From Fidelibacterota bacterium (GTDB lineage: Bacteria > Fidelibacterota > Marinisomatia > Marinisomatales > UBA1611): a DNA stretch of 45,432 nucleotides. The stretch spans positions 2,945 through 48,376 of the forward strand of contig JAPYRR010000001.1 of NCBI GenBank assembly GCA_029936885.1, given 5' to 3'. The translations under genes and the position numbers were made by a program. Positions 2,528 to 3,259 of this stretch are shown piece by piece. Numbering within the stretch: position 1 is the stretch's first letter; every line of letters begins with the position of its first letter. Below the pieces are notes generated by a model that worked only from the letters and a program-made list of their open reading frames with translations, had not been told where the DNA came from and made no database searches.

Positions 2528-3019
2528 ATGAAACTCATTTATCAAAAACTATTTATCCCCTTTATATTACTTCAGGGGTTATTATTTGCACATTGTCAGG
2601 TTCCGTGCGGCATTTATAATGATGCAGCACGAATTGTTCAGCTTCAAGAAGATTTTGCCACCATTCAAAAAGCCATGAATAAGATTAAGAATTTATCGCT
2701 TAAAAAAGATGCCACTTCGATGAATCAAATGACACGATGGATCATGACAAAAGAAGATCATGCATCTAAAATTCAAGAGGTGGTTTCAGACTATTTTCTG
2801 ACCCAACGAATCAAGGAAAAACCAAAGGGTCCCGATTATGTATTGTATGTAAACCAAACAACTATTTTGCATCAAATTCTTGTGGCGGCCATGAAATGCA
2901 AACAAACTGTGGATCCTGGTAAGGTAAAACATGGATTAAAATTGATAGATTCTTTTATTAATCTTTATTTTGATGCACATGGGAAGGACCATATACAAAA
3001 ATTGAGTGGTTCAAATTAA
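2528..3019 (+). CDS. sodN: Exported nickel-containing superoxide dismutase
   Basis: 163 residues. Residues 1-21 form a signal peptide (basic start, hydrophobic core, ending LLFA). Directly after it comes HCQVPCGIY (22-30), the nickel hook of Ni-SOD: His1, Cys2, Pro5, Cys6, Gly7 and Tyr9 of the mature enzyme map to H22, C23, P26, C27, G28 and Y30. The segment around MTKEDHASKIQEVVSDYF matches the family's conserved helical-bundle region. The enzyme disproportionates superoxide to O2 and H2O2 using nickel bound by the free N-terminal amine, His1, Cys2 and Cys6. Cytoplasmic Ni-SODs need a dedicated protease (SodX) to expose His1; here signal peptidase cleavage after A21 would do so, placing the enzyme in the periplasm. 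No sodX-like gene is adjacent. A bidirectional terminator follows. Confidence 0.88.
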   Translation: MKLIYQKLFIPFILLQGLLFAHCQVPCGIYNDAARIVQLQEDFATIQKAMNKIKNLSLKKDATSMNQMTRWIMTKEDHASKIQEVVSDYFLTQRIKEKPKGPDYVLYVNQTTILHQILVAAMKCKQTVDPGKVKHGLKLIDSFINLYFDAHGKDHIQKLSGSN

Positions 3020-3116: not shown

Positions 3117-3184
3117 GGGAACGTGTGAGAATCCCTGCCGAACGGCAGGCAGGGAACCCACTTTTGCGGGAACGTGTGAGAATC
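3117..3184. repeat. 17-bp duplication of the tRNA-Sec 3' end with palindromic insert
   Basis: GGGAACGTGTGAGAATC is present at 3168-3184, as the complement of the T-arm/acceptor end of the tRNA-Sec gene, and again at 3117-3133. The 34 bases between the copies contain the palindrome CCTGCCG/CGGCAGG plus a further CAGG. Duplicated tRNA 3' ends usually mark integrase attachment sites; a 34-bp palindromic insert could also be a REP/MITE-like element. Confidence 0.7.
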
Positions 3185-3259
3185 GAACTCACCGGACCTG
3201 GATTACAGGTCCCAACGGCTTTGAAGGCCGCGGAGAGCACCAGCCACTCAAGCATTCCC
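3167..3259 (-). tRNA. selC: tRNA-Sec (anticodon UCA)
   Basis: The minus strand folds as a selenocysteine tRNA. The 5' acceptor GGGAATG pairs with CGTTCCC, with one T-G wobble. The anticodon stem GCGGC/GCCGT encloses loop CTTCAAA, giving anticodon TCA with U33 present. A long variable arm (GGACCTG...CAGGTCC) follows, then the T-arm GTGAG-TTCGATT-CTCAC. The discriminator is G (3167) and CCA is not encoded. At 93 nt, with a TCA anticodon and a long extra arm, this matches bacterial tRNA-Sec, which is charged with Ser, converted by SelA and delivered by SelB to UGA codons. It begins 34 bp after the SPOR gene and may be processed from that transcript. selA, selB and selD are not in the window. Confidence 0.93.

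Follow-up and report, generated by a model that had tools for sequence, protein, structure and literature searches.

We analysed a 45,432-nucleotide stretch of the draft genome of a Fidelibacterota bacterium (hereafter the window), which contains a sodN-like gene whose product is quite probably a periplasmic (extracytoplasmic) nickel superoxide dismutase (Ni-SOD) that is exported through Sec, matured by signal peptidase I without SodX, and loaded with nickel outside the cytoplasm (Table 1). The gene belongs to a large clade of signal-peptide Ni-SODs that has been little described, and it is an ordinary member of it. A first-pass annotation of the window had read the sequence correctly and had proposed a mechanism that we found to be largely right, but the arrangement extends beyond this gene and genome, as 74 genes of the phylum share its layout.

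Table 1. Coordinates of the sodN-like gene and its parts in the window.
Feature	Position	Strand	Details and basis
sodN-like gene, putative exported Ni-SOD precursor	2528..3019	+	163 aa, stop codon in span; PF09055 and predicted fold
Sec-type signal peptide, residues 1-21 (MKLIYQKLFIPFILLQGLLFA)	2528..2590	+	charged start, hydrophobic core, A at -1
Predicted signal peptidase I cleavage site, A21/H22	2588..2593	+	(-3,-1) rule across 137 distinct leaders; codons A21 = 2588-2590, H22 = 2591-2593
Nickel hook HCQVPCGIY, mature residues 1-9	2591..2617	+	conservation in 65 mature homologues
Mature Ni-SOD domain, 142 aa, predicted helical bundle	2591..3016	+	AlphaFold2 and Foldseek

The open reading frame (ORF) starts with ATG, and 7 nt before it stands AGGA, which resembles a ribosome-binding site. 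Its product begins with MKLIYQKLFIPFILLQGLLFA followed directly by HCQVPCGIY and, read further past the leader, continues as HCQVPCGIYNDAARIVQ. It matches the Pfam family Sod_Ni (PF09055) at 110.1 bits (E = 1.5e-31; cut-off 25) and scores 49.4 bits against the sodN equivalog TIGR02753, which is under the cut-off of 90. The host draft genome is 1.71 Mb in size, in 125 contigs, and is 87% complete.

Leaders were assigned to the Sec/signal peptidase I (SPI) route using heuristic features and comparison with homologues. The host leader has the features that this heuristic looks for (a positive start, a hydrophobic core, a small residue at -1, and agreement with the (-3,-1) rule): two positive charges are followed by a hydrophobic core (best 9-residue Kyte-Doolittle mean of 2.38), and the residues before the hook include A at -1 and, at -3, L, which the rule allows although it is not the most frequent choice in well-studied bacteria. 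Applied as a small residue at -1 and a small or aliphatic residue at -3, the rule fits 99% of 137 distinct homologous leaders at the hook boundary and 9-37% at positions -2 to -13, and 135 of the 137 have A, G, or S at -1. The host layout, with the hook directly after A21, recurs in all 74 signal-peptide homologues of the phylum (73 with A, G, or S at -1). We rejected a twin-arginine (Tat) substrate reading, as no twin-arginine motif was found among the 137 leaders, and a lipoprotein (Sec/SPII) reading, because the residue ahead of C23 is His and not the G, A, or S of a lipobox. The first-pass annotation had placed the hook directly after a signal peptide ending at A21, which was confirmed by the ORF reading and the layout of the homologues. 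It had also placed the cut before H22, giving His as mature residue 1, and the conserved small residue at -1 and the position of the leader across homologues make this the most likely site.

To place the gene among its relatives, we drew on 245 genomes of Neomarinimicrobiota (the host's phylum), 84 of which had a Sod_Ni match, and read the DNA of nearly all 84 for leaders. Two kinds of sodN were distinguished, in a comparison that is unbiased and covers this one phylum. Seventy-four genes encode a Sec-type leader ending directly before HC and 11 encode a short leader. The signal-peptide leaders have a best 9-residue hydropathy of 2.3-3.9, with A (58), G (11), S (4), or P (1) at -1 and L, V, A, I, or T at -3. 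The short leaders are 8-20 residues long, hydrophilic (hydropathy below 0.7), and end in A, and their hook context differs (HCDGPCGIYDP or similar). Both kinds are present in three genomes (G022, G023, and G116) and are therefore separate genes rather than variants of a single one. In an unrooted tree of 148 mature sequences, built by a quick method, a single branch parts the two kinds, with SH-aLRT support of 98. A Neomarinimicrobiota contig of 5,899 bases (JABHAX010000125.1) and a same-genus genome (G126) encode an identical leader, NFLKILLLFSLLNGILFA, running directly into HCQVPCGIYNDA. Another genome of the host's genus has a weak partial Sod_Ni match with an internal stop codon (G125:C6:20674-20853), which may be a decayed sodN or a chance match.

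The two kinds are also separated by SodX. A full-length SodX-like ORF follows 10 of the 11 short-leader sodN genes, the eleventh being located at a contig end, and most of these ORFs carry a GxSMxP-type serine motif as in signal peptidases, to which SodX is related. The genomes with full-length SodX are precisely the 10 that have a short-leader sodN on an untruncated contig, and SodX is always adjacent to that gene; no SodX was found beside the 74 signal-peptide genes, and none in the phylum genomes with the signal-peptide kind only, many of which are more than 90% complete. Weak matches to TIGR02754 (E <= 0.001) in 156 phylum genomes were rejected as SodX because they are mostly partial. Apart from the 10 true SodX proteins almost all of them are partial, and nearly all are to signal peptidase I ORFs of about 300 aa. 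A SodX-matured SodN has a short hydrophilic leader and an adjacent sodX, whereas the host gene has a Sec-type leader and a TIGR02754 search of the host draft genome found no SodX. This absence is weak on its own, because the draft is 87% complete and also has no detectable signal peptidase I; the latter is present in three of the four other genomes of the host genus, and we take its absence from the host as an assembly gap. With such gaps in the draft, the absence of SodX is convincing only through the phylum-wide comparison, and it is this comparison that supports the first-pass view that SodX may not be needed. In several short-leader loci (L002, L003, L005, L006, and L008) sodX is followed by the gene for a conserved membrane protein approximately 117 residues long, and these loci look like a sodN-sodX-membrane protein operon; a peroxiredoxin-like ORF adjoins sodN in several of them.

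A scan of 84,980 species genomes across phyla, seeded with the signal-peptide kind, yielded at least 573 confirmed relatives, of which the best 80 were examined; seeded in this way, the scan shows breadth and not the proportion among all Ni-SODs. Judged by title, these 80 represent about a dozen phyla, including Planctomycetota, Verrucomicrobiota, Thermodesulfobacteriota, Calditrichota, Bacteroidota, Latescibacterota, Zixiibacteriota, Gemmatimonadota, Aquificota, and Neomarinimicrobiota. The signal peptide abuts the hook in 79 of the 80 (including L154, which has a GTG start), so that a signal peptide abutting H-C is the rule in the clade, within the phylum and across phyla. The sole exception is a planctomycete locus (L125, 1982-2437), where about 19 residues separate the hook from a plausible signal peptide. 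No SodX-like ORF was found near the best 80 relatives in flanks of up to 4 kb a side. One contig labelled SAR202 (Chloroflexota; L114, RQOS01000010.1) is probably mis-binned, as its Ni-SOD is on a near-zero branch with that of a Neomarinimicrobiota genome (G038).

The assignment as a superoxide dismutase draws on the hook and the predicted fold. The host protein has the complete hook H-C-x-x-P-C-G-x-Y, and across 65 mature homologues H1, C2, P5, C6, and G7 are invariant and Y9 is found in 62. An AlphaFold2 model of the monomer is a helical bundle with a mean pLDDT of 94.0 (the first ten residues average 56), and its 16 top Foldseek hits against the PDB are Ni-SOD chains without exception, 3g50, 1t6u, and 1q0d among them (probability 1.00, E from 4e-3, TM of approximately 0.65 by query and 0.77 by target). 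A phmmer search gave no match to solved Ni-SODs, and a profile of the signal-peptide kind matched PDB Ni-SODs weakly (E = 6.7e-4) and in the hook region only, compared with 3e-30 for the short-leader kind. Judging from the alignment, the second-shell residues Glu17 and Arg47 of the Streptomyces Ni-SOD are apparently not kept in the signal-peptide clade, which has an invariant set of its own (E20, T24, R49, W50, K54, Y68, Q72, and Q105, with H57 in 64 of 65; mature numbering). With this apparent loss the rate, the details, or even the reaction of the clade enzyme could differ from those of the Streptomyces Ni-SOD.

We surveyed the other superoxide-removing enzymes of the phylum. Of four kinds (Ni-SOD, Fe/Mn-SOD, CuZn-SOD, and superoxide reductase), the exported Ni-SOD is the only one detected in the host genome. 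No convincing Fe/Mn-SOD and no CuZn-SOD were found in the host's family, and no superoxide reductase was found in the host's relatives that were searched. Across the 245 phylum genomes, CuZn-SOD is present in 34 and exported Ni-SOD in 74, and none has both, against 10.3 expected (hypergeometric P = 1.6e-6, a figure that kinship inflates). Counted by genus, the two kinds stand at 25 against 18 with none shared (P = 7e-4), and by family one is shared against 2.9 expected (P = 0.10). Fe/Mn-SOD overlaps with the exported Ni-SOD at chance level (28 against 26.0 expected). The one CuZn-SOD of the phylum that was read has a signal peptide. The mutual exclusion fits a shared periplasmic role and is good support for it, though not conclusive because kinship confounds the genome-level figure; together with the Sec-type leader, it supports the periplasmic placement proposed in the first-pass annotation.

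The cytoplasmic nickel importers NicO, CbiM, and HupE are nearly absent from the phylum, in genomes with either kind of Ni-SOD, and they are therefore uninformative on the site of nickel insertion. No general conserved neighbour of exported sodN was found, and the second most common apparent neighbour was discarded because it is merely the antisense shadow ORF of sodN. In five Neomarinimicrobiota loci (L033, L035, L042, L052, and L061), two Bacteroidales loci (L117 and L124), and L059, a TonB-dependent receptor with a CarboxypepD_reg domain (Pfam-checked in L033, L059, and L117) is located just upstream of, or close to, exported sodN; this is possibly linked to metal uptake and possibly due to chance. 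In the f12 group a PAP2 phosphatase lies directly 3' of sodN. In the window, a selenocysteine tRNA gene (3166-3259, minus strand; ARAGORN anticodon tca; Rfam RF01852, 67.2 bits) is located about 147 bp downstream of sodN.

Other readings of these data have to be weighed. The distance of the clade from solved Ni-SODs, the score under the sodN equivalog cut-off, and the existence of secreted N-terminal-His metal binders, described in a signal-strapping study (PMC12537917), would all suit an exported nickel-binding protein that is not a SOD and whose hook serves to capture or buffer periplasmic nickel (or copper). We consider this unlikely, as the full hook including Tyr9 is kept in 62 of 65 homologues, the predicted fold is that of a Ni-SOD, and a mere nickel buffer would not explain the exclusion of CuZn-SOD.

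Two further readings concern the leader. It might be an uncleaved signal anchor, or be cut elsewhere and then trimmed by another periplasmic peptidase, which would imply a membrane-bound enzyme or a two-step maturation; the planctomycete locus L125 demonstrates that leader and hook can lie further apart. This appears very improbable, because an anchor needs neither the small residue at -1 found in nearly all leaders nor a (-3,-1) rule that falls almost always at the hook boundary. Furthermore, a free N-terminal amine is a nickel ligand in Ni-SOD structures, and the buried amine of an anchored protein could not serve as one. Alternatively, the leader could be no more than a long pro-peptide of a cytoplasmic Ni-SOD matured by an unlinked SodX, whose gene could be missing from the incomplete host draft. 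This reading is disfavoured and we give it hardly any weight, given that SodX is confined to the short-leader genomes and always adjacent to sodN there, that the more complete signal-peptide-only genomes are also without it, and that SodX-type leaders are hydrophilic.

For the exported, SodX-free Ni-SOD that we prefer, we infer cleavage between A21 and H22, the export route, nickel loading outside the cytoplasm, and SOD activity. The precursor would leave the cytoplasm unfolded through Sec; since Sec exports unfolded chains, the protein should fold and bind nickel only after export. The general signal peptidase I, which cleaves behind a small residue at -1, would cut after A21, making His22 residue 1 with a free amine and so replacing the SodX step. 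Outside the cytoplasm the hook would then take up nickel, and the enzyme would remove superoxide in the periplasm, which is the job of CuZn-SOD in other members of the phylum. The conservation of leader and hook and the separation from SodX-type sodN support, at the level of sequence, the first-pass proposal that secretion itself may mature the enzyme.

SodX processing of SodN is the standard in Streptomyces (PMC3919588), and Ni-SOD has been described as cytoplasmic, with strains lacking sodX perhaps unable to use it (PMC8346466). The signal-peptide clade shares with the SodN/SodX system of Streptomyces coelicolor and marine cyanobacteria (TIGR02753/TIGR02754) the Pfam family, the hook, the predicted fold, and the need to expose His1, and SodX-type leaders also end in Ala. 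It differs in having a Sec signal peptide in place of a short hydrophilic leader, no SodX, a presumed extracytoplasmic location, Q or E at hook position 3 where the other has D, and, for the host protein, a score under the sodN equivalog cut-off. Signal-peptide Ni-SODs are already in print, in passing: in the available part of the 2025 signal-strapping study, the signal peptide of a planctomycete Ni-SOD (Roseiconus lacunae WP_230780104.1), a secretion signal followed directly by His as in our clade, served as search bait and retrieved many Ni-SODs (PMC12537917). In that part of the study the protein is a bait only, and its SodX, maturation, location, distribution, and SOD repertoire are not analysed. 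Ubiquitin-NiSOD fusions of marine algae represent another N-terminal arrangement (PMC6332867), similar in that an upstream module is fused to Ni-SOD and SodX is not mentioned, but eukaryotic, with ubiquitin in place of the signal peptide and no export route. Periplasmic CuZn-SOD (SodC) shares the presumed job and compartment and does not occur together with the exported Ni-SOD in any of the 245 phylum genomes, yet it has an unrelated fold, uses another metal, and belongs to another family. We found no account of a SodX-free exported Ni-SOD clade in the open literature.

The interest of these results lies in the clade as a whole rather than in the host gene. We lean towards the view that exported, SodX-free Ni-SODs are a major overlooked class of periplasmic SOD in about a dozen phyla, in which signal peptidase I does the work of a dedicated protease, nickel insertion takes place outside the cytoplasm, and the enzyme stands in for periplasmic CuZn-SOD. 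If this is true, a lack of sodX would not mean the lack of a working Ni-SOD, contrary to what has been assumed for some cyanobacteria. The clade would represent a SodX-free route to a free His1 that moves Ni-SOD to the periplasm, an oxidising compartment in which an enzyme with two cysteine ligands would have to acquire its nickel. It would also provide heterotrophic marine and sediment bacteria with a periplasmic SOD independent of both copper and iron.
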